From contig NZ_JASHIK010000006.1 of NCBI RefSeq assembly GCF_030733745.1, forward strand, positions 1 through 64,000: a stretch of DNA of 64,000 nt, written 5' to 3'. The number at the start of each line of letters is the position of its first letter. Position 1 is the first letter of the stretch. Origin of the DNA: Stappia sp. MMSF_3263 (lineage in GTDB: Bacteria > Pseudomonadota > Alphaproteobacteria > Rhizobiales > Stappiaceae). The notes beneath the pieces are model-generated. The model was not told the DNA's origin, made no database searches, and saw nothing but the letters and a program-made list of their open reading frames with translations. Made by a program: the position numbers and the translations under genes. This document shows positions 26,382 through 40,013 of the stretch, in pieces.

Positions 26382-27797
26382 TCACAAGACCGGCTTCCGG
26401 CTCGCTCCGGCCAGGATGAACGGGTTCAGCCCGAGCCGGGCGCGCGCCTGGTGACAAAGCGCCGCCGCCTCGAAAATCATCGCCATCGCCGTGGCAAGGG
26501 CGGCACCGACAATGCCCAGAACCGGAATCAGCGAGACGTTGAGCACGATGTTGAGCGTGAAGGCGAGCGCGTAGATCAGCGCGCATCGGTTCTGTTGGTC
26601 CGCCATCGTCAGCAGCGCGTCCACCGGACCGACCGAGGCGCGCGCCAGCACACCGGCGAGCAGGATCAGCATCACCGGATAGCCGCTGGTGAAGCCCGGC
26701 CCGAACAGGGCCAGCAGGAACGGCCCGATCACCACCAGCAGGGCGCACAGGCCGAGCGTCGGCCAGAACGTCCAGCGCGCGGTGTCGCTGACCAGCGTGC
26801 CGAGCTCTGCATGGGCCCCGCTCTGGTAGAGCTGGGAATAACGGTGCGCGGTCGCCGAGCGAACCGCGAAATAGACGAAATGCGCAAGGGCCGGTGTCTT
26901 CGAGGCGGCGAAATACACAGCCACCTCGTCGGGCGGCCGCCACAGGCTGACCAGGATCACGTCGGCGCTGGTGATCAGCTGGAAGAACCCCTCGACCAGC
27001 AGGATCGGCAGCGAGATCTTCAGCCAGGTCGAGATCGCCCAGTTGTCGCGGGACGGCAGGCGCGGCGGTTCGCTCTTCAGCGAGCGGCCGAGCACGAACA
27101 TCTGCGCCAGCGTGACCAGCCAGGTGGCGACGATCGTGACGATGCAGGCGGCGGTGGCGGTTGCCGGCGCGCCGAGCCAGACGGCGGCGACCATGCCGAC
27201 GAGGATCGCCAGCGGTCGCCAGATGAACGGCGGCAGCATCGCCAGCAGCGGCCAGTCATGGGCGCGCGCGATGCCGTCCTGAATGCTGCCGATGGTGAAC
27301 AGCGGCAGGCAGATCGCGCCCAGCAGCAGCGGCAGCACGTAATAGGAGGCGATGAGGTCGCCGGCGAGCCAGACCACGCAAACCCCGACAAGCGCGATCG
27401 CCGTCGCCGACAGGCCTCCGGCAAGCCGGCTGCCGATGAGAAGCGCGTTCAGCCGCCCGGTGGCGCCCTGTGCCCGGTATTCCGGGATCAGCCGCAACAC
27501 CGATGAGGAAAAGCCCAAGGGGGCGAAGATGCCGAGCACGATGACCATCGTCCACACGACGACGTAGATCCCGTATTCGTGGCCGCCCATCATGCGCGCC
27601 AGGATGACCTGCAGCACATAGGCCATCACCGCGCCAAGAACGCGAACGCCGAAAACGATCAACGCCATGCGCTGCGCCCGCGACGTGTCCGGCTCTCCGG
27701 TCAGCACCGCCTCGAGGCGCGCGAGCGCCGGACGCAAGCGCATCAAGACGATTGCGGGCAAGACCCGTTCGGCCCATGTCAACAGGGACAGGCGCAA
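26382..27797 (-). CDS. Polysaccharide flippase (Wzx/MOP-superfamily lipopolysaccharide biosynthesis protein)
   Basis: A 471-residue membrane protein with about 12-14 hydrophobic segments, beginning RMALIVFGVRVLGAVMAYVL and GHEYGIYVVVWTMVIVLGIFAPLGFSSSVLRLIPEYRAQG, the N-terminal pattern of Wzx-type O-antigen/exopolysaccharide flippases. It would move lipid-linked sugars across the inner membrane. The TTG at 27797 was chosen because AAGGAG lies nine bases before it; the ATG at 27743 is the alternative. The adjacent BioF2-type gene suggests a surface-polysaccharide context, but no glycosyltransferases are present. Confidence 0.8.
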   Translation of the reverse strand: MRLSLLTWAERVLPAIVLMRLRPALARLEAVLTGEPDTSRAQRMALIVFGVRVLGAVMAYVLQVILARMMGGHEYGIYVVVWTMVIVLGIFAPLGFSSSVLRLIPEYRAQGATGRLNALLIGSRLAGGLSATAIALVGVCVVWLAGDLIASYYVLPLLLGAICLPLFTIGSIQDGIARAHDWPLLAMLPPFIWRPLAILVGMVAAVWLGAPATATAACIVTIVATWLVTLAQMFVLGRSLKSEPPRLPSRDNWAISTWLKISLPILLVEGFFQLITSADVILVSLWRPPDEVAVYFAASKTPALAHFVYFAVRSATAHRYSQLYQSGAHAELGTLVSDTARWTFWPTLGLCALLVVIGPFLLALFGPGFTSGYPVMLILLAGVLARASVGPVDALLTMADQQNRCALIYALAFTLNIVLNVSLIPVLGIVGAALATAMAMIFEAAALCHQARARLGLNPFILAGASRKPVL

Positions 27798-27806
27798 AGT
27801 CGGCAG

Positions 27807-27812
27807 CTCCTT
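27807..27812 (-). promoter_or_regulatory. Ribosome binding site deciding the TTG start of the flippase gene
   Basis: AAGGAG on the minus strand, nine bases upstream of the TTG at 27797. The in-frame sequence further upstream shows no hydrophobic or family-like character. Confidence 0.5.
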
Positions 27813-28085
27813 TTCGGTCGACCGGCGCCAGCCTAGCGTGTCGAGGTTTAATTTTCCGTGCGCGCCGCAACGGAACAGACGCCAGTCCGCAGGCCTCCCA
27901 GACTTGTCGCCCGACTTGGCCGGAATTGTCCAGATCGCTTGAGGGAACAGACGGACCGCGAACTGGCCGTTGACGAAAGCCGGACGGTGGTCGCTAATCG
28001 CCCCATGGGAGGAAGAAGGCAAATCGGCCGCGCCCGCTTGCGGCGACGCGCAGCGCATTCCGGCAGGCAGGGCAATCACGAAAAC

Positions 28086-29417
28086 GTGCGCGCGGCGCTG
28101 CTGCTGGCCGGCACCCTGCTCCTTGCCACCGGGACATCCGCCAATGCGCAGTCTCCCCAGACCGGCCTCGCTGTCGATCCCGATTGCGAGCTGACCATCC
28201 TCACGTCCTATCCCGAAAGCTTCTACGCCCCCTTCGTCGACCGCTTCTCGGCCGCCGCCCGCGCCGCGACCTGCGTTATCAACAAGAACACGATCTCGAT
28301 CCTCGACCACATGCGCGAGCAACGGCAACCGGAACCGGACCTCATCTGGTCGAGCTCGCCGATCGCCTTTCGCATGCTCCAGGATGCCGAGTTGCTGGCG
28401 CGGGTTCCCGAGAAGGTCCGTCCTCCGGCGGATTTCGGCGGGCTCGCGGTCGATGCGCCGGACGGCTCGCGGTTCGGTTTCGCCCTGTCGCGGGTCGGCC
28501 TGATGTGGGCGAAGACGACGACGCTGCCCGTGCCGTCCGACCTGAAGGGCCTCACGGACCGGACGCTTGCCGGGCGGATCGGCATGACCTCGCCGGCGCG
28601 CAGCGGCACCACGCATCTCTTCGTCGAGGTCATCCTCCAGCAGTATGGCTGGCAGGAAGGCTGGGCCGTCATCTCCCGGCTCGGCGGCAACATCGCCACC
28701 ATCACCGCCCGCAGCTTCGGCGTGCCAGAAGGCGTGCGCAAGGGTCGCTTCGCCTTCGGCATCGGCATCGACTTCCTCGCCAGCGTCGGCCGCAAGCCGC
28801 CGGGTCGCCTTGCCTTCAAGCCCTTGTCGCCGCAAGTCTTTCCGGCAAGCGTCGCCATAACGCGCAAGGGCGCCGGCAACCGCCTTGCGGGAGACTTCGT
28901 CGACGAGTTGCGCTCCACCGGGGCGCAGGCGCTGCTGCTCGATCCGGCCATCGCCCGCATCCCCGTCCTGCCCGGGCTCTGGCGCGAGGCCGGGTTCACC
29001 CCTGACCGCTCTCCGGACGCCCCGGCGTTCGACGCGCGGCTCGCCGCAAGGCGCCTTGCGGTGGTGACGGCGCTTTTCGACGAGATGATCACCTATCGGC
29101 AGGTCGAGCTCGCCCAGCTTTGGGACGCGGTGCACCGGCTGGAGGGGGAGCCGCTCATCTCCGCCTCCTCCGTGATGAGCGGCCATCTGGACCGGGTCCG
29201 CACCCTACTTGAGAGCGTGCCGGTCGCCCCCTTCATGGCCGATCTCAACCTTCTCGAGCCCCTGCCCGCCGATGTCGAGTTCCGCTCGCTCGACGGTCGC
29301 CTGAGGATCCAGGACAGCTGGGCACACGACTTCAGCAACCGCTTCGACCGGGCTCGCGAGCTGGTCGCCCAGCTCGATGCGTTCATTGCCGACACGGCGA
29401 CGGCGGACCGGCCGTGA
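28086..29417 (+). CDS. PgtC-like periplasmic binding protein of a three-component regulatory system
   Basis: A 443-residue exported protein: signal peptide VRAALLLAGTLLLATGTSANA then the binding-protein start CELTILTSYPESFYAPFVDRF. Core motifs SPARSGTTHLF, GWQEGWAVISRLGGN and ITARSFGVPEGV are shared with the transporter binding protein at 32978. A helical tail of over 100 residues follows the usual fold. Salmonella PgtC works with sensor PgtB and activator PgtA in phosphoglycerate-induced signalling; gene order here (C-B-A, coupled by overlaps) matches. GTG 28086 was chosen because the signal peptide starts there; ATG 28005 would add 27 arginine-rich residues. The ligand is unknown. Confidence 0.75.
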   Translation: MRAALLLAGTLLLATGTSANAQSPQTGLAVDPDCELTILTSYPESFYAPFVDRFSAAARAATCVINKNTISILDHMREQRQPEPDLIWSSSPIAFRMLQDAELLARVPEKVRPPADFGGLAVDAPDGSRFGFALSRVGLMWAKTTTLPVPSDLKGLTDRTLAGRIGMTSPARSGTTHLFVEVILQQYGWQEGWAVISRLGGNIATITARSFGVPEGVRKGRFAFGIGIDFLASVGRKPPGRLAFKPLSPQVFPASVAITRKGAGNRLAGDFVDELRSTGAQALLLDPAIARIPVLPGLWREAGFTPDRSPDAPAFDARLAARRLAVVTALFDEMITYRQVELAQLWDAVHRLEGEPLISASSVMSGHLDRVRTLLESVPVAPFMADLNLLEPLPADVEFRSLDGRLRIQDSWAHDFSNRFDRARELVAQLDAFIADTATADRP

Positions 29418-31420
29418 AATCGGACCTGGCCAGCCTCAAGCTCAAGCTGATCGCCTCGATCGCGCTGATCGCCGGGGTCGCGATCATCGCCACGATCGTC
29501 ACCAGCCTGACGCTGACCCGTGTCGGCCAGTCGGTCAGCCGGCTTGCCTCCGACACCCTGTCGCTGGCGGCCGCGAACGCCCGTTTCGCCGAGATCGGCC
29601 AGGCGGTCCGCGTCGACGTTCCGCTGCTGGGCAATGCCGAGACGCAGTTCGACCGGGAGGCCGCCGCCGAACGGTTGCGCCAGCACTTCCAGACGCTCCG
29701 CGCCCTGCTTCCAAGAACACGGGCGACGGCCGGCTTCGCCGCCTCCGTCGAGGACGTTCTGGGCAGGCTCGACGCCACCGTGCAGGACCTCGACCGCAGC
29801 GTCGCGCGCCGCTTCGGCCAGCGCGCGGTGCTCAGCGCGCAGATCGCCCGGATCAACCGGCTGCACGGCGATTTCCTGCTTGAGGTCGACCCGCTCCTGA
29901 CCGATGCCAAGTTCAATGTCGCCGCCGCGTTGCGGGACGTAGACGGCAGCGCCGGCCGCCCCTGGCAGGAGCGGCGGGACGGCGTCGCCGTGGAGATCCG
30001 CAACGCCGAGGCCCTCGGCCGGCTGCACGCCAATGCCAATCTCGCCGTCGGCCTGATGCTGCGGGGCGCGGCCGAGACCGACTTCCGGCGCATCGAGCAC
30101 CTGAAGGGACGCCTGGCCGACACCATCGCCGAGGCGAATGTCAACGCCGCCGGCCTGTCGGTCAATCCGAGCGCCATCACCTTGCGCCAGCTCTGGGAGG
30201 AAATCGCGAATTACGGCCAGCCGGGCCGCGACCTGCTGGCGCTGAAGCTGCGCGAGAACGCGCTGAGCGCGGAAAGCCTGCGCCTGCAGGAAGAGAACGG
30301 CGTGCTGCTGGAACGGCTCGGCAGCATTGTCGCAGGGGCCGTGCGCGAAAGCGGACTGCGTTCGGAAACCGTGGCGGCCGAGATCGACGGCACCGTCGCC
30401 CGCGGCCGGGTGTTCAGCGTCGTCAGCATGCTCGTCATGCTGGGTCTGCTGCTCGCCTTCACGATCTTCTATGTACGCGGTCAGCTCTTCGGCCGGCTGA
30501 TGGCGGTGCTCACCTCGATGCAGGCGATCGCCGATGGCGACAAGGACGTCAAGGTCCCGGTCGAGGGCAAGGACGAGATAGGCCAGCTTGCCGACGCGGT
30601 CCGCCTGTTCCGCCACAAGTCGCAGGCCCTCGACCAGCGCGCCCGGGAACTGAACCGCTCCAACATCGCGCTGACCGACGAGATCGCCCGGCGCCGCGGC
30701 GTCGAGAACGACCTGCGCGAAACGCAGGCCGAGCTGGTCCAGACCGCAAAGCTCGCCGCCCTCGGCCAGCTGTCGGCCGGCATCGCGCACGAGTTCAACC
30801 AGCCGCTGATGGCGATGGGATCCTACACACACAATGCGGTGCGCTATCTGGAGAAGGGCGAGACTGCGATGTGCCGCGAGAAGCTCGGCGACATCGACCG
30901 CCTGATCAAGCGCCTGTCGAAATCCTCCAACCATCTGAAGACCTTCGCCAGACGTCCCCAGGAAGCGGCAACGCGCCACGACGTCCGCGAGGTCGTGGCC
31001 AACGCCCTGTCGCTGTTCGAGCAACGGATCGCCAGCGAGGCCGTCGAGGTGGTCTGGCGCCAGCCCGGCGAACCGGTCGACGTGATGACCGAGCCGGCGC
31101 AACTCGAGCAGGTCTTCGTCAACCTGGTGAGCAACGCTCTCGATGCCATGAAGAACAGCGACGCCCCCCGGCTAACCATCTGGATCGAGGAAACCGGGCG
31201 TCTGGCCCGTGTCAGCCTCAGCGACACCGGCACCGGCCTCAGCGACGAGGCGCGCGGCCGGGTCTTCGACCCCTTCTTCACCACCAAGCCGCCGGGCGAG
31301 GGGCTGGGGCTAGGCCTGTCCATCTCCTACAATATCGTTCGCGACCTCGGCGGCCGGCTGGATATCGGACGCGCCGAAGAAGGCGGCGTCATCGCCACAG
31401 TGGAACTCTTCAAGACATGA
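29414..31420 (+). CDS. PgtB-like sensor histidine kinase
   Basis: Inner-membrane kinase of 668 residues: first membrane segment about 12-34, a large periplasmic helical sensor (about 35-330), second segment about 333-355, HAMP domain (SMQAIADGDKDVKVPVEGKDEIGQL), coiled linker, then HisKA with phospho-acceptor H459 in LSAGIAHEFNQPL and an HATPase domain (N box NLVSNALDAM, G boxes DTGTGL and GEGLGLGLSI). The GIAHEFNQPL type H-box is typical of DctB/PgtB kinases partnering sigma-54 activators. Its GTG start overlaps the stop of the PgtC-like gene by four bases, and its own stop overlaps the activator start. Confidence 0.85.
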   Translation: MKSDLASLKLKLIASIALIAGVAIIATIVTSLTLTRVGQSVSRLASDTLSLAAANARFAEIGQAVRVDVPLLGNAETQFDREAAAERLRQHFQTLRALLPRTRATAGFAASVEDVLGRLDATVQDLDRSVARRFGQRAVLSAQIARINRLHGDFLLEVDPLLTDAKFNVAAALRDVDGSAGRPWQERRDGVAVEIRNAEALGRLHANANLAVGLMLRGAAETDFRRIEHLKGRLADTIAEANVNAAGLSVNPSAITLRQLWEEIANYGQPGRDLLALKLRENALSAESLRLQEENGVLLERLGSIVAGAVRESGLRSETVAAEIDGTVARGRVFSVVSMLVMLGLLLAFTIFYVRGQLFGRLMAVLTSMQAIADGDKDVKVPVEGKDEIGQLADAVRLFRHKSQALDQRARELNRSNIALTDEIARRRGVENDLRETQAELVQTAKLAALGQLSAGIAHEFNQPLMAMGSYTHNAVRYLEKGETAMCREKLGDIDRLIKRLSKSSNHLKTFARRPQEAATRHDVREVVANALSLFEQRIASEAVEVVWRQPGEPVDVMTEPAQLEQVFVNLVSNALDAMKNSDAPRLTIWIEETGRLARVSLSDTGTGLSDEARGRVFDPFFTTKPPGEGLGLGLSISYNIVRDLGGRLDIGRAEEGGVIATVELFKT

Positions 31421-32802
31421 GCCAGAACACCTCCGGTACCCCCGTCCTGCTGATCGACGACGAAGCTGAAATCCGCAAGGCATGGTCCGAGACGCTGGCG
31501 CTTGAGGTCTATAGCCCCCAGGCCTTTGCCGACGGGGCGAAGGCGCTGGAAATCCTCTCTCCCGCCTGGCCGGGCGTGGTCGTCACCGACCTGCGCATGC
31601 CCGGGCTCGACGGCTTCGACATCCTCAAGGCGGTACGGGCGATCGACCCGCAGCTCCCGGTGATCATCATCACCGGCCATGGCGACATTCCCATGGCGGT
31701 GCGCGCCGTGCGGGCGGGAGCCTACGACTTTGTCGAGAAGCCGACTGACCCGGAAATGCTGCTCTCCGTGGTCGGCCGCGCCGCCCAGATGCGCGCACTC
31801 GTGCTGGAGAACCGCCGCCTGACGGAAGGCACGGGGCGCGCCTACGACATCGAGAAGGAACTGATCGGCAACAGCCCGGCCATGGCCCGCCTGCGCGACC
31901 GCATCCGGGCGGTCGCCCCCGCGGACGTCAACACGGTCGTCTACGGGGAAACCGGAACCGGCAAGGAACTGGTGGCCCGCGCCCTGCACGAATGCGGGCC
32001 GCGTCGCCGGGGACCCTTTGTCGCCCTCAACTGCGGCGCGCTTCCCGACACGCTGATCGCCAGCGAACTGTTCGGGCACGAGGCCGGCGCCTTCACCGGC
32101 GCCGACCGGCGACGGATCGGCCGGCTGGAACAGGCAAGCGGCGGCACGCTGTTTCTCGACGAGATCGAGAGCATGCCGTTGTCGCACCAGACCCAGCTGC
32201 TGCGCGCGCTGCAGGCGCAGACCATCGAGCGGCTCGGCGGCAAGGAGGAAATCCGCATCGACGTGCGCGTCGTCGCCGCCGCCAAGGTCGACCTCGAGGA
32301 GGCCTCGACCCGGGGTGCGTTCCGCGCGGACCTGTTCTACCGGATCGCCGTCGCGGAAGTGTCGATCCCGCCGCTGAGGCGGCGGAACGAGGACATCCCG
32401 CTGATCTTCATGCATTACGCGGCGCGCGCCGCCGAACGTCACGGACTGCCGCTGGCCGAGCCCGCGCCGTCGCTGTTCGAGACACTGATGCGCATGCCGT
32501 GGCGGGGCAATGTCCGCGAACTGGTCAACTTCACCGAACGCTTCGCGCTGGGCATCGACCCGGCTCCCGAGCGCCCGTTCGAGGACGCCGCCACGGGTCA
32601 GACGCTGCCCGAGCGCATCGATGCCTTCGAGCGCGGCGTGCTGGCGGCTGCGCTTCGCGAGACCGGCGGACGGATCCAGATGACCGCCCGGCATCTCGGC
32701 ATCCCCCGGAAGAAGCTCTACCTGCGCATGCAGCGTCACGGCCTCGATCGGCAGGACTACGCGGCCGACGAAGGTGTCGATAATGACCCGGATAAGAATT
32801 AG
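31417..32802 (+). CDS. PgtA-like sigma-54-dependent response regulator
   Basis: Cytosolic 461-residue NtrC-family activator. Receiver domain 1-125 with phospho-acceptor D58 in VVVTDLRMPGLDG and K106-type VEKP; AAA+ domain with Walker A GETGTGKE (about 177-184), the sigma-54-contacting GAFTGA loop (about 224-229), Walker B GGTLFLDEIESM and arginine-finger region RADLFYRI; C-terminal Fis-type HTH (RIQMTARHLGIPRKKLYLRM). All key residues are intact. Translationally coupled to the kinase (ATGA overlap). A matching sigma-54 promoter and dyad repeats lie immediately downstream, so the ABC importer genes are the obvious target. Confidence 0.9.
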   Translation: MSQNTSGTPVLLIDDEAEIRKAWSETLALEVYSPQAFADGAKALEILSPAWPGVVVTDLRMPGLDGFDILKAVRAIDPQLPVIIITGHGDIPMAVRAVRAGAYDFVEKPTDPEMLLSVVGRAAQMRALVLENRRLTEGTGRAYDIEKELIGNSPAMARLRDRIRAVAPADVNTVVYGETGTGKELVARALHECGPRRRGPFVALNCGALPDTLIASELFGHEAGAFTGADRRRIGRLEQASGGTLFLDEIESMPLSHQTQLLRALQAQTIERLGGKEEIRIDVRVVAAAKVDLEEASTRGAFRADLFYRIAVAEVSIPPLRRRNEDIPLIFMHYAARAAERHGLPLAEPAPSLFETLMRMPWRGNVRELVNFTERFALGIDPAPERPFEDAATGQTLPERIDAFERGVLAAALRETGGRIQMTARHLGIPRKKLYLRMQRHGLDRQDYAADEGVDNDPDKN

Positions 32803-32821
32803 AACGGGTCATTAGTGACCC
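32781..32821. promoter_or_regulatory. Upstream activator sequences: three TGACCC/GGGTCA half-sites
   Basis: TAATGACCCG (32781-32790) and CGGGTCATTA (32805-32814) form a perfect 10-bp inverted repeat, and GGGTCA-TTAG-TGACCC (32806-32821) forms a second, overlapping dyad. They sit 86-126 bases before the -24 box of the sigma-54 promoter, the usual distance for NtrC-type enhancer sites, and overlap the 3' end of the activator gene. They probably bind the PgtA-like regulator. The first dyad could also act as a weak terminator. Confidence 0.6.
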
Positions 32822-32906
32822 TTACCAAACGTTGCATTGACCAGTAAGATGGAATTTAATTCTTAAATATCAATATATTACCGAAATCCCAATGATCCGG
32901 CCGGAG

Positions 32907-32922
32907 TGGCACACCGGTTGCA
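32907..32922 (+). promoter_or_regulatory. Sigma-54 (-24/-12) promoter of the ABC importer genes
   Basis: TGGCAC-N5-TTGCA matches the sigma-54 consensus exactly, with GG at 32908-32909 and GC at 32920-32921 ten bases apart. Transcription would start near 32934, about 44 bases before the ATG at 32978. Confidence 0.85.
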
Positions 32923-32977
32923 ATTCACCTCCCAGGCGGTTCGCGGTTCGACGAACGGCCATCTCAGGGAGGAACTC

Positions 32978-34333
32978 ATGCAGAACAGATTTCAGGCAAC
33001 CATGCGCCGTCTCGGGCTTGGCGTCGCGGCCGCGGCGATCCTGGTCTCGGCGGCGGCCCACGCGGCCGACGACAAGCTCGTCATCGTCACGTCCTTTCCC
33101 ACCGACCTGACGGATGTCTTCAAGACCGCCTTCATGGCCAAGCATCCCTCGATCGCGGTGGAGGTTCTGAACAAGAGCACCTCGAGCGGCGTGAAATACC
33201 TGATCGAGACCGCGCAGAACAACCAGTCGGACATCTTCTGGGCATCCGCCCCCGATGCCTTCGAGGTGCTCAAGGGCGAGAGTCTTCTTGCCAAGTACTC
33301 GCGCGAGGTCGACGGCATCCCCTCCGACCTCAACGGCTACCCGATCAACGATCCGGACGGCCGCTATCTCGGCTTCGCCCTGTCGGGCTACGGGATGATG
33401 TGGAACACCCGCTACATGGACGCCTACAGCCTGCCGGTGCCGCAGGAATGGAGCGACCTGGAAAAGCCCGTCTATCACGGCCATGTCGGCATTTCCGCGC
33501 CGTCGCGCTCCGGCACCACCCATCTGACCATCGAGACGATCCTGCAGGGCGAAGGCTGGCAGGACGGCTGGCAGACCATTCTCGCCATGGGCGGCAACGC
33601 AAAGACGATCACCGAGCGCAGCTTCGGCGTGCCGGACGGCGTCAACAGCGGTTCCTTCGGCATCGGCGTGGTCATCGACTTCTTCGGCTTCTCCTCCAAG
33701 GCCTCCGGTTTCCCGGTCGACTTCCGCTATCCGAGCGTGACCGCGCTGGTGCCCGCCAATATCGGCGTCGTGGCCAATGCGCCGAACGAGGCGCCGGCGC
33801 AGAAGTTCGTCGACTTCCTGCTGTCGCCGGACGGCCAGCAGCTGCTTTTCGATGCGAAGATCATGCGCCTGCCGGTCAACAAGAACGCCTATGACAACGC
33901 CCCGGAAGGCCTGCCCAACCCGTTTGACGGATCGATCAAGACGGAAGTCAACTTCGACAGCGACCTGTCGGAGAAGCGCTACAACGTGGTCAACTCGCTG
34001 TTCGACGTGATGATCACCTACCGTCTCGACGACCTGCGCGCGGCGACGCAGGCTGTGCAGCAGGCCGAGGCAAAGCTCGAGCAGTCCGGCGCGGCGAATG
34101 CCGAGGCGGCGGCACTCATCGATGAGGCCAGGGCCCTGATCTCGGCACTGCCGGTGTCCGAGGCAGAGGCTCTCGACCCGGACTTCAACGCCATCTTCAA
34201 GACCAAGCGCAAGTCCAAGGACGTCAAGGTCGAGGGGCGGCAGGCCGAGATCGAGCAGGAGTGGGACACAAAGGTGATCCGCAACTACAGCCTGGCCGTC
34301 GAACTCGCCAACAAGGCGGCCGGCATGCTTTGA
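32978..34333 (+). CDS. ABC importer periplasmic substrate-binding protein, Fe(III)/organophosphate-type family
   Basis: A 451-residue exported protein with signal peptide 1-31 (MRRLGLGVAAAAILVSAAAHA) and the AfuA/FbpA-like fold start DDKLVIVTSFPTDLTDVFKTAF. Ligand-side motifs SRSGTTHLTIETILQ, GWQDGWQTILAMGGN and TERSFGVPDGVNSGSFG are shared with the PgtC-like sensor protein. After the standard lobe structure comes a helical tail of about 130 residues (RYNVVNSLFDVMITYRLDDL, EAKLEQSG), making it longer than the usual 340 residues. AGGGAGG six bases before ATG 32978 fixes the start. Ferric chelates, phosphoglycerate or other sugar phosphates and phosphonates are all family substrates; none can be chosen here. 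Confidence 0.82.
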   Translation: MQNRFQATMRRLGLGVAAAAILVSAAAHAADDKLVIVTSFPTDLTDVFKTAFMAKHPSIAVEVLNKSTSSGVKYLIETAQNNQSDIFWASAPDAFEVLKGESLLAKYSREVDGIPSDLNGYPINDPDGRYLGFALSGYGMMWNTRYMDAYSLPVPQEWSDLEKPVYHGHVGISAPSRSGTTHLTIETILQGEGWQDGWQTILAMGGNAKTITERSFGVPDGVNSGSFGIGVVIDFFGFSSKASGFPVDFRYPSVTALVPANIGVVANAPNEAPAQKFVDFLLSPDGQQLLFDAKIMRLPVNKNAYDNAPEGLPNPFDGSIKTEVNFDSDLSEKRYNVVNSLFDVMITYRLDDLRAATQAVQQAEAKLEQSGAANAEAAALIDEARALISALPVSEAEALDPDFNAIFKTKRKSKDVKVEGRQAEIEQEWDTKVIRNYSLAVELANKAAGML

Positions 34334-34473
34334 CGGCATAGCGCCGCAAGCGGAGGCGGATGGCGGATCCCACCCGCGGCGCGAAGGCGCCGTGGCCGCC
34401 ATCGGTCCGCGCCGGGGATGTCCTGTCTCCGGCGCTTCCGCCCACCTGTCCCGAAAATCCGGAGTACTTCGTC

Positions 34474-36201
34474 ATGACGTCCGTTGCCCTGCGGCGGCCG
34501 GCGCGAGGAGTGTCGCTCGGCCCGTATGTGGTCGCCGGCCTGATCCTGCTGTTTCTCGGCGCGTTTCTCGTCGTTCCCGTCCTCAAGGTGATCCAGGTCG
34601 CCTTCCAGGACCCGGGAACGGGCGGCTTCACGCTGGTCAACTTCCAGGATTTCTTCAACAGCGCCCTGTTCCGCCAGTCCTTCTTCAACTCGCTCTACGT
34701 CGCCGGCGTCTCGGTGGTGATCGCCACCGTGATCGCGCTGCCGCTCGCCTACTTCACCTCGCGCTTCAACTTTTCCGGCTCGGTCATCATCCAGACCTTG
34801 TCCTTCGTGCCGCTGATCATGCCGCCCTTCATCGGCGCGGTGGCGATGCAGCTGCTGTTCGGTTCAAACGGCAGCGTCAACCTGCTGCTGCGCGACAATT
34901 TCGGCATCACCGTGCCCTTCATGGACGGCCTCAACGGCGTCATCTTCGTCCAGAGCATCCACTATTTCCCGTTCATCCTGATCAACCTCTCGGCGAGCCT
35001 GCACAACATCGATCGCTCGATGGAGGAGGCCGCGCAGATGCTCGGCTCGAGCGGGTTGCGGCTGTTCCGCAAGATCGTCTTCCCGCTGGCCATGCCCGGC
35101 TACATCGCCGGCGCATCGCTGGTCTTCGTCAAGGTCTTTGACGATCTCGGCACGCCCCTGCTGCTCAACGTCAACACGATGCTGGCGCCGCAGGCCTATC
35201 TGCGCATTTCCTCGGTCGGCATCTCCGACCCGATGGGCTATGTCATCTCGACGATCCTCATCATCTTCTCGGTCTTCGCCATGTGGGTGTCGTTCCTCGG
35301 CATGCGCGGCAAGGACTATTCGACCACCCAGAAGGGCGGCGGCGGCATTGCCCGGCGCGACCTGCGCCCTCACGAGGCGGCCGCTTGCTACCTGGTCGTG
35401 TTCCTGATCCTCGGCATCGTCCTCGCCCCGCATCTCGGCCTGCTGCTGCTTTCCTTCGGCACGGTCTGGTCGTTCAGCGTCATGCCCGACGGCTTCACCG
35501 TCGCCCATTACGGCACGGCGCTGACCTCGGCCGGCACCTTCATCAAGAACACCCTGATCTATGCGGGACTTGCCGGCCTGATCGACATCGTGCTCGGCAC
35601 CGCGATCGCCTATGTGGTGATGCGCACCGGCGTGGTCGGCCGCAAATGGCTCGACCACATCGCCGTCGCCGCCCTTGCCGTTCCCGGCGTGGTGCTCGGC
35701 ATCGGCTACCTGCGCATGTTCTACGGCATCGACATGCCCGGAACCGGTCAGCCGCTGGCCACCTGGTGGGGGATCATCGTCATCGCCCTCGCCATCAGGC
35801 GGCTGCCCTATGCGCTGCGCTCGTGCACCGCCGCCCTGCAGCAGATCGCCCCGGCGCTGGAAGAAGCTTCGGAAAACCTCGGCGCATCGAAGTTCCGCAC
35901 CGTGCGGCGCATCGTCGTGCCGTTGATGGCGGGCGGCCTGGTCGCGGGCTTCGTCACCAGCTTCGCCACCGCCGCCGTCGAGCTGTCGGCCACCATCATG
36001 CTGGTCTCCAGCGAGAACGACGCGCCGCTTTCCTACGGCCTCTATCTGTTCATGCAGTCGGCCGCCGGCCGCGGACCTGGCGCTGCCCTTGGCGTCATGG
36101 CCGTCCTGATCGTCGGCCTTGCCACCTATCTCTCGCATCGCCTCGTGGAAAAGACGCGCCGCGACCGCAGCACACCCGAAAACAGCGGAGGACATCGCTG
36201 A
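34474..36201 (+). CDS. ABC importer permease, fused double domain (FbpB/PhnV type)
   Basis: A 575-residue inner-membrane protein with about 12 segments in two homologous halves. Each half carries the EAA loop that docks the ATPase: EEAAQMLGSSGLRLFRKIVF (residues about 182-201) and EEASENLGASKFRTVRRIVV (about 464-483). The double-length permease is typical of the Fe(III)/2-aminoethylphosphonate/phosphoglycerate class. ATG 34474, preceded by GGAG, was preferred over an in-frame upstream start at 34360. Follows the binding-protein gene by 140 bases. Confidence 0.88.
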   Translation: MTSVALRRPARGVSLGPYVVAGLILLFLGAFLVVPVLKVIQVAFQDPGTGGFTLVNFQDFFNSALFRQSFFNSLYVAGVSVVIATVIALPLAYFTSRFNFSGSVIIQTLSFVPLIMPPFIGAVAMQLLFGSNGSVNLLLRDNFGITVPFMDGLNGVIFVQSIHYFPFILINLSASLHNIDRSMEEAAQMLGSSGLRLFRKIVFPLAMPGYIAGASLVFVKVFDDLGTPLLLNVNTMLAPQAYLRISSVGISDPMGYVISTILIIFSVFAMWVSFLGMRGKDYSTTQKGGGGIARRDLRPHEAAACYLVVFLILGIVLAPHLGLLLLSFGTVWSFSVMPDGFTVAHYGTALTSAGTFIKNTLIYAGLAGLIDIVLGTAIAYVVMRTGVVGRKWLDHIAVAALAVPGVVLGIGYLRMFYGIDMPGTGQPLATWWGIIVIALAIRRLPYALRSCTAALQQIAPALEEASENLGASKFRTVRRIVVPLMAGGLVAGFVTSFATAAVELSATIMLVSSENDAPLSYGLYLFMQSAAGRGPGAALGVMAVLIVGLATYLSHRLVEKTRRDRSTPENSGGHR

Positions 36202-37313
36202 TGAACGCTTCAACCGGCTGGACACCCGGCAATGCCGCCGTCGGCGCCGCCATTTCCGCGATCGGCATCGAGATCCGCGACCTCGGTCTCTCCTTCGGCT
36301 CGACCGAGGTGCTGAAGGGTATCGACCTGACCATCGAACCGGGCGAGTTCTTCGCCTTTCTCGGCCCCTCGGGATCCGGCAAGTCGACGCTGCTTCGCGC
36401 CATCGCCGGTTTCGGCCCGACGCCGCGCGGCGCCATCCTGCTCGACGGCACAGACATTGTCGGCGAGGCGCCCTGGCGGCGCAATGTCGGCATGGTGTTC
36501 CAGAACTACGCGCTGTGGCCACACATGTCGGTGGCGAAAAACGTCGCCTACGGCCTCAACGAGCGGAAGATCCGGGGCGATGAAGCCGACCGCCGCGTGC
36601 GCGCCGCGCTGGAACTGGTGGGCATGGAAGCCTATGCGGAGCGCTATCCCTCGCAGCTCTCCGGCGGCCAGCAGCAGCGTGTCGCGCTCGCCCGCACCAT
36701 CGTCGTCGAACCGCGCGTGCTGCTCCTCGACGAGCCGCTCTCCAATCTCGACGCCAACCTGCGGGTGCAGATGCGCCAGGACCTTCTCAAGCTGCAGCGC
36801 CGGCTTGGCATCACCACGATCTTCGTCACCCATGACCAGGAGGAGGCGAACACGATTTGCGACCGCATCGCGGTGATGGCCGACGGCGTGGTGCAGCAGG
36901 TCGGCAAGCCGGACGATGTCTACGACACGCCGGCCAACAGCTTCGTGGCGAAGTTTCTCGGCACCGCCAACGTGGTCGAGGGAACCGTCGGTCGCGATGC
37001 GGACGGCGCACCGCTCTTTCGCGCCGGCTCCGGGCTTGTCGTTCCACTGCGTGCCGGCGAGCAGGACGGACCGGCGAAGATGGTCCTGCGTCCGCAGAGC
37101 ATCGACTTCACGGACGGAACCGGCCCGGACAGCGTCGAGGCCGGCGTTGTCGCGGCCGAGTTCCTCGGCAGCGTCATCCGCTACCAGGTTCGTGTCGGCG
37201 ACCAGGATCTCCTGGTCGACGAGCGCCACACGCGCGGGGTCGCCCGCAGAGATCCGGGCGAGACGGTCCGCATCCGGCTGAACCACGACCAGGCGGTGTT
37301 GATCCGCGCCTGA
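36201..37313 (+). CDS. ABC importer ATP-binding protein with TOBE domain (FbpC/PotA type)
   Basis: A 370-residue ATPase: Walker A GPSGSGKST (about 55-63), Q-loop VFQNYALWPHMSV, signature LSGGQQQRVALARTIV (about 152), Walker B VLLLDEPLSNLD and switch histidine in FVTHDQEEA. A C-terminal TOBE/OB domain (from about residue 245) completes the MalK/FbpC architecture. Start ATG overlaps the permease stop by one base, so the two are translationally coupled. Powers import of the ligand bound by the preceding periplasmic protein. Confidence 0.92.
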   Translation: MNASTGWTPGNAAVGAAISAIGIEIRDLGLSFGSTEVLKGIDLTIEPGEFFAFLGPSGSGKSTLLRAIAGFGPTPRGAILLDGTDIVGEAPWRRNVGMVFQNYALWPHMSVAKNVAYGLNERKIRGDEADRRVRAALELVGMEAYAERYPSQLSGGQQQRVALARTIVVEPRVLLLDEPLSNLDANLRVQMRQDLLKLQRRLGITTIFVTHDQEEANTICDRIAVMADGVVQQVGKPDDVYDTPANSFVAKFLGTANVVEGTVGRDADGAPLFRAGSGLVVPLRAGEQDGPAKMVLRPQSIDFTDGTGPDSVEAGVVAAEFLGSVIRYQVRVGDQDLLVDERHTRGVARRDPGETVRIRLNHDQAVLIRA

Positions 37314-37401: not shown

Positions 37402-38295
37402 TCAGCGGGCGAAGCGCCGCGCTCCGGCCACGCAGGCGATCACGGCAAGGGTGACGGCCAGCATCGTCCAGGTCACCGGTTCATGCAGCAGCCAGGCGGC
37501 AAGCGCCAGGCCGAGGAACGGCTGCAGCAGCTGCAACTGGCTCACCGCCGCAATGCCGCCCTGCGACAGTCCCCGGTACCAGAAGACGAAACCGATCAGC
37601 ATGGAAAAGGACGACACATAGGCAAGCCCGGTCCATGCCGGCGGCGCGATGCCGGAAAAGCTGGCCGGCATCGACACGATGGCGAGCACGATCATCGCCG
37701 GCAGCGACAGGATGAGCGCCCAGGAGATCACCTGCCAGCCGCCCAGCCGGCGCGACAGGTGCGCCCCTTCCGCATAGCCCAGGCCGCAAACGACGATTGC
37801 CGCCAGCATCAGGAGATCGCCGGTCGACGAGGCGAACGCGCCCGCCGCCCCTCCCGTCCCGGCCGACAGCCCCTGCATCAGCGCGAAACCTGCGACGGCG
37901 GCGCTGCCGGCAAGCGAGAACAGCCAAAAGGCCGGCCGCGGCCGCTCACCGCCCCGGATCACCCCGAAGATGGCGGTGGCGAGCGGCAGCAGGCCGATGA
38001 AGACCATGGAATGCGCCGAGGTGACGTGCTGCAGCGCCAACGCGGTCAGCAGGGGAAAGCCGACGACAACCCCGAGCGCCACGATCGCAAGCGGAACGAG
38101 ATCGGTCCGGGCCGGACGTTTTTCGCGAAAGGCCAGCACCAGCAGAAGTGCCAGCAGACCCGCGATGGCGGCCCGGGCAACGGTCAGGAACACCGGGTCG
38201 AATTGCAGCACCGCCGTCCGGGTTGCCGGCAGGGATCCGCTGAAAATCACCACGCCGATGAAACCGTTGATCCAGCCGCTTGTCGTCTTGTCCAC
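37402..38295 (-). CDS. EamA/DMT family transporter
   Basis: A 297-residue inner-membrane protein with about ten segments in two EamA repeats (GWINGFIGVVIFSGSLPATRTAV at the start; the second half ends IGFVFWYRGLSQGGIAAVSQLQLLQPFLGLALAAWLLHEPVTW, a clear EamA ending). The family exports amino acids or other metabolites. It is divergent from a MocR regulator with a palindrome between the two start sites, a common pairing in which the MocR protein senses an amine-containing or PLP-related metabolite and controls the exporter. Confidence 0.85.
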   Translation of the reverse strand: MDKTTSGWINGFIGVVIFSGSLPATRTAVLQFDPVFLTVARAAIAGLLALLLVLAFREKRPARTDLVPLAIVALGVVVGFPLLTALALQHVTSAHSMVFIGLLPLATAIFGVIRGGERPRPAFWLFSLAGSAAVAGFALMQGLSAGTGGAAGAFASSTGDLLMLAAIVVCGLGYAEGAHLSRRLGGWQVISWALILSLPAMIVLAIVSMPASFSGIAPPAWTGLAYVSSFSMLIGFVFWYRGLSQGGIAAVSQLQLLQPFLGLALAAWLLHEPVTWTMLAVTLAVIACVAGARRFAR

Positions 38296-38363
38296 GTCAG
38301 CCTCCGTTTGATTGCCCAGCCGCTATCGCGCGCCGGAGCCTGCGCAACCAGAGACAGTGGAAT

Positions 38364-38381
38364 ACAGTTTCGAAAAACTGT
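38364..38381. promoter_or_regulatory. Operator palindrome between the EamA and MocR genes
   Basis: ACAGTTT-CGAA-AAACTGT is a perfect 7-4-7 inverted repeat 48 bases before the MocR ATG. A further AACTG occurs about 10 bases downstream in direct orientation. It is the likely MocR binding site; inference from position and symmetry. Confidence 0.5.
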
Positions 38382-38428
38382 TAGGGTAACAACTGCAATA
38401 CGGATCCTTGCAGAAGCCGGGTGGACGA

Positions 38429-39826
38429 ATGACGGAGACGAGCGGGAACGGCACCCTGACGGAGCGCGTGATGAATGTGATCCGGCAGCGCATCGCCGGA
38501 CGCAGCCTGCCTCCGGGGGCAAAGCTCCCCTCGATCCGGCGGATGGCCGGCCACATGCAGGTCTCGCCCTCGACCGTCGTCGAGGCCTATGAACGCCTGG
38601 TGGCCGAGGGACAGATCGCGGCGCGGCCGGGCTCGGGTTTCTATGTCACCAGCCATGCGGCCCCGCTCGCCCTGTCCCAGGTCGGCCCGAGGCGCGACCG
38701 CGCCATCGATCCGCTCTGGGTCTCCCGCCAGTCCCTGGAGGCCGGCGAGGCGGACCTCAAGCCCGGCTGTGGCTGGCTGCCCCCGTCATGGCTGCCCGAG
38801 GAGAACCTGCGCAAGGCGCTCAGGTCCCTCGCCCGCGCCGAAAGCAGCGCGCTTGCGGACTACGGGTCGCCGCTCGGTCTTTTCCCCATGCGGCAACTCA
38901 TCGCCCGGCGGCTGGCGGAAAAGGGCGTAGAGGCTTTTCCCGAACAGATCCTGCTGACGGAATCGGGCACGCAGGGCATCGACCTCCTGTGCCGCCTGCT
39001 GGTCGAGCCGGGCGATATCGTGCTCGTCGACGACCCCTGCTACTTCAACTTCCAGGCGCTGCTGCGCGCCCACCGCGTCAGGATCGTCGGCGTCCCCTAC
39101 ACCCCCTCGGGGCCCGACATCGGGCGCCTCGCGGCGGTGCTGGGCGAGCACCGGCCACGGCTCTACATCACCAATTCCGCGATCCACAACCCGACCGGCG
39201 CCAGCTTGTCGCCGGTGACCGCTCACCGGGTGCTCAAACTGGCCGAACAGCACGGCCTGACCATCATCGAGGACGACATTTTCGCCGATATGGAGCATGT
39301 GGCAGCGCCCCGGCTCGCCGCCTTCGACGGCTTCGACCGGGTCATCCAGATCGGCAGCTTCTCCAAGACGCTGTCCGCCTCGATGCGCTGCGGCTATATC
39401 GCCGCGAGGCCCGACTGGATCGAGGGACTGGCGGATCTGAAGATCGCCACCAGCTTCGGCGGTGGCCGGCTCAATGCGGAGCTTGTGCTGGGCGTGCTGC
39501 GCGACGGTGGCTACCGGCGGCATCTGGAGACGCTGCGCGAGCGCCTCGCCCGCGCCATGGCCGAGGTTGCGCCCCGGTTGCGGGCGCTCGGCGTGATCCC
39601 CTGGATCGAGCCTCAGGCCGGCATGTTCCTGTGGTGCGAATTGCCCGGCGGCATCGATGCCGCCGACGTGGCGCGCGCCGCCCTGGTGCAGGGCGTGGTG
39701 CTGGCGCCGGGCGATGTCTTCAGCGTCTCGCGCTCGGCCACCAGCCACATGCGCTTCAACGTCTCGCAATGCCCCCCAAAAGTCTTCGACGTGCTGCGCG
39801 AGGCGATCCGGCAGGCGGGAGGATAG
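38429..39826 (+). CDS. MocR family (GntR-aminotransferase fusion) transcriptional regulator
   Basis: A 465-residue fusion: N-terminal GntR winged HTH (TERVMNVIRQRIAGRSLPPGAKLPSIRRMAGHMQVSPSTVVEAYERL, residues about 10-56) joined to a fold-type I aminotransferase domain. PLP lysine K313 lies in GSFSKTLSASMRCGY; NSAIHNPTGASLS supplies the PLP-contacting Asn and EDDIFADM the Asp. All PLP residues are present, so it should bind PLP and sense its adducts. ATG 38429 was chosen because the HTH begins shortly after it. Regulates the divergent EamA gene by inference. Confidence 0.88.
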   Translation: MTETSGNGTLTERVMNVIRQRIAGRSLPPGAKLPSIRRMAGHMQVSPSTVVEAYERLVAEGQIAARPGSGFYVTSHAAPLALSQVGPRRDRAIDPLWVSRQSLEAGEADLKPGCGWLPPSWLPEENLRKALRSLARAESSALADYGSPLGLFPMRQLIARRLAEKGVEAFPEQILLTESGTQGIDLLCRLLVEPGDIVLVDDPCYFNFQALLRAHRVRIVGVPYTPSGPDIGRLAAVLGEHRPRLYITNSAIHNPTGASLSPVTAHRVLKLAEQHGLTIIEDDIFADMEHVAAPRLAAFDGFDRVIQIGSFSKTLSASMRCGYIAARPDWIEGLADLKIATSFGGGRLNAELVLGVLRDGGYRRHLETLRERLARAMAEVAPRLRALGVIPWIEPQAGMFLWCELPGGIDAADVARAALVQGVVLAPGDVFSVSRSATSHMRFNVSQCPPKVFDVLREAIRQAGG

Positions 39827-39937
39827 GGGAGGAATGCGGCAGCCCGCCTGGGTTGCGGATCCGCGCGGCATGAGGCACCGACCGCTTCCGGCACACAGGA
39901 AGCAGCTTCTCGCGATGGCTTCAGCTCAAGAAGAAAG

Positions 39938-40013
39938 TGGTGCCGGTGAACGGACTCGAACCGCCGACCCCATCATTACGAATGACGTGCTCTACCAACT
40001 GAGCTACACCGGC
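39938..40013 (-). tRNA. tRNA-Thr (anticodon CGT)
   Basis: A 76-base cloverleaf on the minus strand: acceptor GCCGGTG/CACCGGC, D arm GCTC/GAGC, anticodon stem CGTCA/TGATG with loop TTCGTAA giving CGT, T arm with GGTTCGAGTCC and an encoded CCA. Confidence 0.95.

Follow-up and report, generated by a model that had tools for sequence, protein, structure and literature searches.

On balance, the six co-directional plus-strand genes at 28086–37313 of the window (the whole 64-kb stretch of DNA that was analysed) probably form a substrate-induced import locus, in which a PgtCBA-like three-component sensor drives ABC-type import of phosphoglycerate-like compounds. Sequence comparison gives good support to the circuit that would lead from sensor protein through kinase, regulator and sigma-54 to the importer, and we infer the ligand class to be a phosphoglycerate-like phosphorylated carboxylate. 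In the proposed mechanism, the sensor protein would bind 2- or 3-phosphoglycerate, phosphoenolpyruvate or phosphoglycolate in the periplasm, and the ligand-loaded protein would dock on the periplasmic domain of the kinase. The kinase would phosphorylate the NtrC-type regulator, which, from a tandem pair of putative operator dyads, would drive sigma-54 RNA polymerase at 32907; the transport binding protein, permease and ATPase would then be made and the same compound imported with ATP. This reading draws on the gene content, the paralogy of the two binding proteins, the promoter element and its co-occurrence with the GAFTGA loop among relatives, the unique tandem dyads and the parallel grouping of the binding proteins, all of which are visible in the sequence itself. 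If true, this subgroup of importers, observed in Alphaproteobacteria and Vibrio, would scavenge small phospho-acids of glycolysis or photorespiration, and a function would be provided for many operons mislabelled as iron importers.

Organization of the locus

The initial annotation had described three translationally coupled regulatory genes followed by a binding protein-permease-ATPase set, and all six genes lie where it had placed them (Table 1). The sensor and kinase genes share 4 bp (29414–29417), as do the kinase and regulator genes (31417–31420), and the permease and ATPase genes meet at 36201. Pfam matches are to SBP_bac_11 for the sensor protein, to HAMP and HATPase_c for the kinase (with HisKA slightly under its cut-off), to receiver, sigma-54 AAA+ and Fis-type helix-turn-helix (HTH_8) domains for the regulator, and to SBP_bac_6 for the transport binding protein. 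The kinase has two hydrophobic stretches (about residues 5–37 and 328–359) with a putative periplasmic domain between them. The G+C content of the locus (0.668) is similar to that of its flanks (0.675–0.707).

Table 1. Features of the sensing and import locus, in window coordinates
Feature	Coordinates	Strand	Remarks
Sensor solute-binding protein, PgtC-like	28086..29417	+	GTG start; signal-peptide-like N terminus; sensor clade in tree; fold
Membrane histidine kinase	29414..31420	+	best NCBIfam match PgtB
NtrC-type response regulator	31417..32802	+	GAFTGA loop intact
Upstream operator-like dyad, GTGTC-N6-GACCC	32774..32789	.	within 3' end of regulator gene
Downstream operator-like dyad, GGGTC-N6-GACCC	32806..32821	.	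32 bp from upstream dyad
Sigma-54 -24/-12 promoter element, TGGCACACCGGTTGCA	32907..32922	+	consensus match
Transport solute-binding protein	32978..34333	+	paralogue of sensor protein
Fused two-domain ABC permease	34474..36201	+	BPD_transp_1, two stretches
ABC ATPase with TOBE_2 domain	36201..37313	+	ABC_tran and TOBE_2

The order of binding-protein sensor, kinase and NtrC-family regulator is that of PgtC-PgtB-PgtA in Klebsiella and Salmonella, where transport is described as substrate-induced (PMC11077982). The earlier proposal of a Pgt-like C-B-A cascade with a sigma-54 output is borne out by this gene order, by the GAFTGA loop and by the 29 of 29 loci described below. The output of the Pgt system is the antiporter PgtP, whereas here it is an ABC importer with a second binding protein of its own; the gene families thus agree with the proposal that an importer of the ferric/organophosphate class takes the place of PgtP. 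The regulators also differ, in that the PgtA proteins of Klebsiella (L066:10160-11410) and Salmonella (L098:7657-8904) are without GAFTGA, while the window regulator has the motif together with a sigma-54-type promoter. One PgtA residue is suggested in PMC11077982 to lie within a domain that contacts sigma-54, a suggestion that sits uneasily with the absence of GAFTGA from PgtA.

AfuABC and P5PAB resemble the importer in their organophosphate-binding type II solute-binding protein fold, Ser-Gly-Thr phosphate site and ABC import, but their sugar- or ring-binding residues are missing here, and a dedicated three-component regulator is attached here. The kinase scored 239.8 bits against the NCBIfam PgtB model and did not reach the cut-off of 1000; the regulator scored 318.8 bits against PgtA (cut-off 650), which was only its seventh-best model. 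Because it falls short of these cut-offs and has no counterpart of the AfuA sugar residues, the locus was assigned to neither PgtCBA nor AfuABC; to judge from its parts, it would operate as a PgtCBA-like sensor coupled to an importer of the AfuABC type. Among other systems, HptA-HptS-HptR with UhpT of Staphylococcus aureus has an antiporter output and a different class of kinase and regulator, and the Cua binding proteins belong to a different family. The Cua system of Ruminiclostridium cellulolyticum (CuaD-CuaS-CuaR with CuaABC) is a studied case in which a single cargo has two binding proteins, CuaA serving the ABC transporter and CuaD sensing on its behalf; unlike the present locus, it has a sugar ligand and an AraC-type regulator (PMC10384115).

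Sigma-54 promoter and operator-like dyads

The -24/-12 consensus of sigma-54 promoters is TGGCAC-N5-TTGCW. The element upstream of the transport binding protein gene is the sole exact match to it in the window, and four exact matches occur in the 5.02 Mb genome, against one in a backwards control. The site had been called perfect, which is correct for this form of the consensus and not for the longer TGGCACG-N4-TTGCW, to which it matches at 11 of 12 positions. With one mismatch allowed, two matches were found in the window against 1.67 expected, so that the site by itself is modest evidence.

The case is made by comparison among 54 loci with an orthologous permease (window included), drawn from plasmid records and genome contigs, 35 of which have a co-directional regulator gene upstream. 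Sigma-54 elements were sought within 170 bp of the transport protein start at a threshold of 10/12 or better, with the GG/G positions fixed (an earlier scan that did not fix them was noisier), and 53 of the 54 loci, including the window, were scored, L058 being left out as truncated. Such a site precedes the transport genes in 29/29 loci with a GAFTGA-type regulator (GAFTGA, GSFTGA, GAFTNA or GAFTSA), in none of the six with a loop-less regulator (L050-L052, L064, L092, L096) and in none of the 18 where no co-directional regulator was seen upstream. For these 18 the upstream stretch covered 6.5–8 kb (2 kb for L071), and a regulator beyond it is possible; two loop-bearing loci, L062 and L094, have their regulators as far upstream as 3.9 and 11.2 kb. 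Many of the loci are closely related, and at 85% transport-protein identity they fall into 32 clusters, of which 16 hold loop-bearing loci, three loop-less loci and 13 solely loci without a regulator. Since 29 of 29 GAFTGA-type loci have the site and none of the other 24 do, the association goes beyond chance and argues strongly for a promoter at 32907. The features expected of sigma-54-dependent control (GAFTGA loop, -24/-12 element and rpoN, the last in one copy in the genome) are all present.

Two dyads of the form GNGTC-N6-GACNC, each of 16 bp, begin 133 and 101 bp ahead of the -24 element. Single dyads are not beyond chance (three found in the window versus 2.44 expected), and for this reason solely the tandem pair and its recurrence were used. 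The tandem pair is present at a single place in the 5.02 Mb genome and nowhere in the backwards control. A dyad matching at 8/9 positions or better is present in 20 of the 35 loci with a regulator and in 0/18 without one. All six loop-less loci have such a dyad, as do 14 of the 29 loop-bearing loci; in the remaining 15 of the 29, no dyad reaches 8/9. The dyads are spaced 31–32 bp in the window and its three nearest relatives, and the nearer dyad begins 80–101 bp before the -24 element.

A branch without the GAFTGA loop

In the six loop-less loci the dyads are instead 23–24 bp apart and end 84–94 bp short of the start codon. Three changes thus coincide in one branch: the loop is lost, the sigma-54 site is lost and the putative operators lie nearer to each other. 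The branch is supported (100/98), and because the loop-less loci form a single branch, the loss of the loop and that of the sigma-54 site were probably a single event. Some loop-less NtrC proteins are reported to be active at sigma-70 promoters (PMC10274813), and the branch has likely switched to sigma-70 control. Within the family, sigma-54 forms of the circuit can be compared directly with matched forms that are apparently free of sigma-54. Tentatively, and somewhat short of an even expectation, the locus may be the first case recognised of ATP-driven import of phosphoglycerates, phosphoenolpyruvate or phosphoglycolate, wired through sigma-54 to its own PgtC-type sensor; one branch (loop and sigma-54 promoter lost, operators 23–24 rather than 31–32 bp apart) would then preserve the trace of an exchange of sigma factors in a single regulatory unit.

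Paralogous sensor and transport proteins

Aligned over 416 columns, the sensor and transport binding proteins share 34% identity, a paralogy that the initial annotation had overlooked. A tree was calculated from 83 rows, comprising 52 transport proteins, 30 sensor proteins and Klebsiella PgtC; L058 and L086 (the latter with its transport gene in two frames) were omitted, and five of the 35 regulator loci have no sensor row. The sensor and transport rows form two clades separated by a split with support of 97/90, and the sensor rows have longer branches. Parallel groupings are seen in both clades: the window with Nitratireductor and Mesorhizobium, and groups of Vibrio, of Paracoccus and of Azospirillum. 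Judged from these topologies, the pair appears to be older than the split of these lineages, or to have moved as a unit. The paired proteins would make it possible to ask how one binding-protein fold was split between signalling and transport.

Thirty-nine positions are conserved in both groups, and 30 of these are identical in Klebsiella PgtC. A signature chosen in the present analysis, R177, S178, T180, R214 and S215 (transport numbering), is common to both groups and to Klebsiella PgtC; the nine common positions that differ in the latter include G179 of the Ser-Gly-Thr motif, which is Asp there. In a profile alignment, S178 and T180 align with the phosphate-binding Ser and Thr of AfuA. Neither AfuA nor P5PA has Arg at columns 177 and 214. 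In P5PA, however, an Arg precedes column 177 by one position and column 214 is Lys, and in AfuA a Lys precedes column 214 by one position, so that the Arg signature is less exclusive than its appearance suggests.

Genes downstream of the importer

In 16 of the 54 loci (12 of the 32 clusters at 85%), a gene for a histidine phosphatase or a phosphoglycolate-phosphatase-type HAD protein, both broad families, lies directly 3' of the ATPase gene, co-directional and at a distance of 9–179 bp. The search seeds came from six of the 16 positive loci (L060, L061, L062, L064, L067, L094) and the annotation of L093 was known before the scan; the remaining nine positives are independent of the choice of seed. 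His_Phos_1 or HAD_2 was confirmed with Pfam in 7/16 (L040, L041, L060, L061, L062, L064, L067), and L094 matches histidine-phosphatase NCBIfam models below cut-off. Against the NCBIfam phosphoglycolate phosphatase cut-off of 180, the Chelatococcus HAD protein scores above at 223.4 and that of Maritalea slightly under at 176.8. The other seed matches are solely second genes of the same run, namely a pyruvate kinase in Pseudochrobactrum and, in Chelatococcus and two Azospirillum loci, a histidine phosphatase next to the HAD gene on its 3' side. With the seeds used, no downstream phosphatase was found in 38 of the 54 loci, the window among them.

Candidate ligands

The residues common with PgtC, together with the downstream phosphatases and, in one locus, pyruvate kinase, favour an organophosphate over iron as the ligand, the Pgt class being the most likely. 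PgtC is described as a sensor of 3PG that triggers PgtB and PgtA (PMC11077982), and PgtP as a carrier of 2-/3-PGA and PEP (PMC10715179). The ligand and role had been proposed as new to this layout; the shared residues and the phosphatases make the Pgt class probable instead.

The solved structures nearest to the transport protein have hexose phosphates or PLP as ligands. The same circuit could serve a hexose or heptose phosphate, as AfuABC does, but we regard this as unlikely: the sugar-binding residues of AfuA are given as His205, Asp206 and Glu229 (PMC4546632), and of the positions so numbered, located by count, the first two face gaps in the profile alignment and the third faces Val. The longer branches of the sensor rows and the 34% identity between the two proteins would allow sensor and importer to recognise different compounds, with the cue serving as a proxy for the cargo; the conserved residues are, however, common to both proteins, and no position more than 90% conserved within each group yet differing between the groups was found, which makes such a division quite unlikely.

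Pyridoxal 5'-phosphate or another B6 phosphate, as for P5PA, is a distinctly poor candidate. The P5PA His taken as the ring-binding His203 aligns with Phe235 in the profile alignment, PdxH was found in only two of the 54 loci with a seed that was not broad, and P5PA is known from Pasteurellaceae only, according to the P5PA paper. The missing sugar- and ring-binding residues lower the probability of both AfuA-type and P5PA-type ligands. Separately, a PdxH-type oxidase gene follows the phosphatase in Paracoccus denitrificans (L064:18679-19347), and L096 has a partial match at the corresponding position, which may hint at vitamin B6 phosphates in that branch.

Import of 2-aminoethylphosphonate is very improbable, even though NCBIfam ranks phnS2 first for the transport protein, PhnU2 for the permease and PhnT2 for the ATPase, because all three miss their cut-offs (TIGR03261/03262/03265; phnS2 114.3 against 392.75, PhnU2 169.9 against 593.25, PhnT2 355.3 against 457.7) and no phosphonate-catabolic gene is named in the eight annotated neighbourhoods read. 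Ferric-binding proteins such as FbpA hold iron with a pair of Tyr residues. Import of ferric iron or a ferric chelate follows the database labels ('iron ABC transporter permease' in 8/8 annotated relatives read) but can be given hardly any weight, since the phosphatase neighbours and phosphate-site residues speak against iron, and iron labels are reported to have been wrong for AfuABC (PMC4546632). The Tyr pair has no counterpart in the profile alignment, which is gapped at that place.

Distribution and flanking regions

The layout is not unique to the window, being found also in Nitratireductor, Mesorhizobium, Ensifer, Azospirillum, Paracoccus, Vibrio and further bacteria. It seems little studied; no study of it was found among the best-listed matches in the open-licence literature. 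A strict permease search recovered the importer in 14 of 385 genomes of the class, 19 of 297 of the order and 6 of 299 of the phylum, counts that each include the window's genome and have some genomes in common. Within the genus, both binding proteins are present in 8 of 13 other genomes, in two versions unlike that of the window: one in G002, G003, G005, G008 and G012, and a second, with a loop-less regulator, in G004, G006 and G011.

In five of five same-genus genomes, similarity to the window ends at 27796–27869 in the upstream flank (by eye a flippase gene), and in two of the five, G002 and G011, a version of the locus sits elsewhere. A second junction was not found in this comparison, and horizontal transfer is therefore not claimed. 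Past the ATPase gene, the next open reading frame of the window is on the minus strand and resembles, by eye, a DMT-type transporter; the interval 37402–40013 holds this gene, a GntR/aminotransferase-type regulator (also by eye) and, at 39938–40013, a tRNA-Thr, and its genes have no clear link to the importer.

The importer is kept in two genomes of the same class of about 1.2 Mb (L077 and L078, from G267 and G435), with no two-component system in the stretch read; a HAD-type phosphatase match follows the importer in L078. Three of the 18 loci in which no co-directional regulator was seen (L054, L082 and L085) have genes for a related kinase and regulator on the other strand, 3.7–3.8 kb past the ATPase gene (at about 15.2–17.7 kb of the oriented loci), and the intervening open reading frame is, by eye, TRAP transporter subunit-like. 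This kinase/regulator pair is possibly the same sensing module serving another type of transporter.
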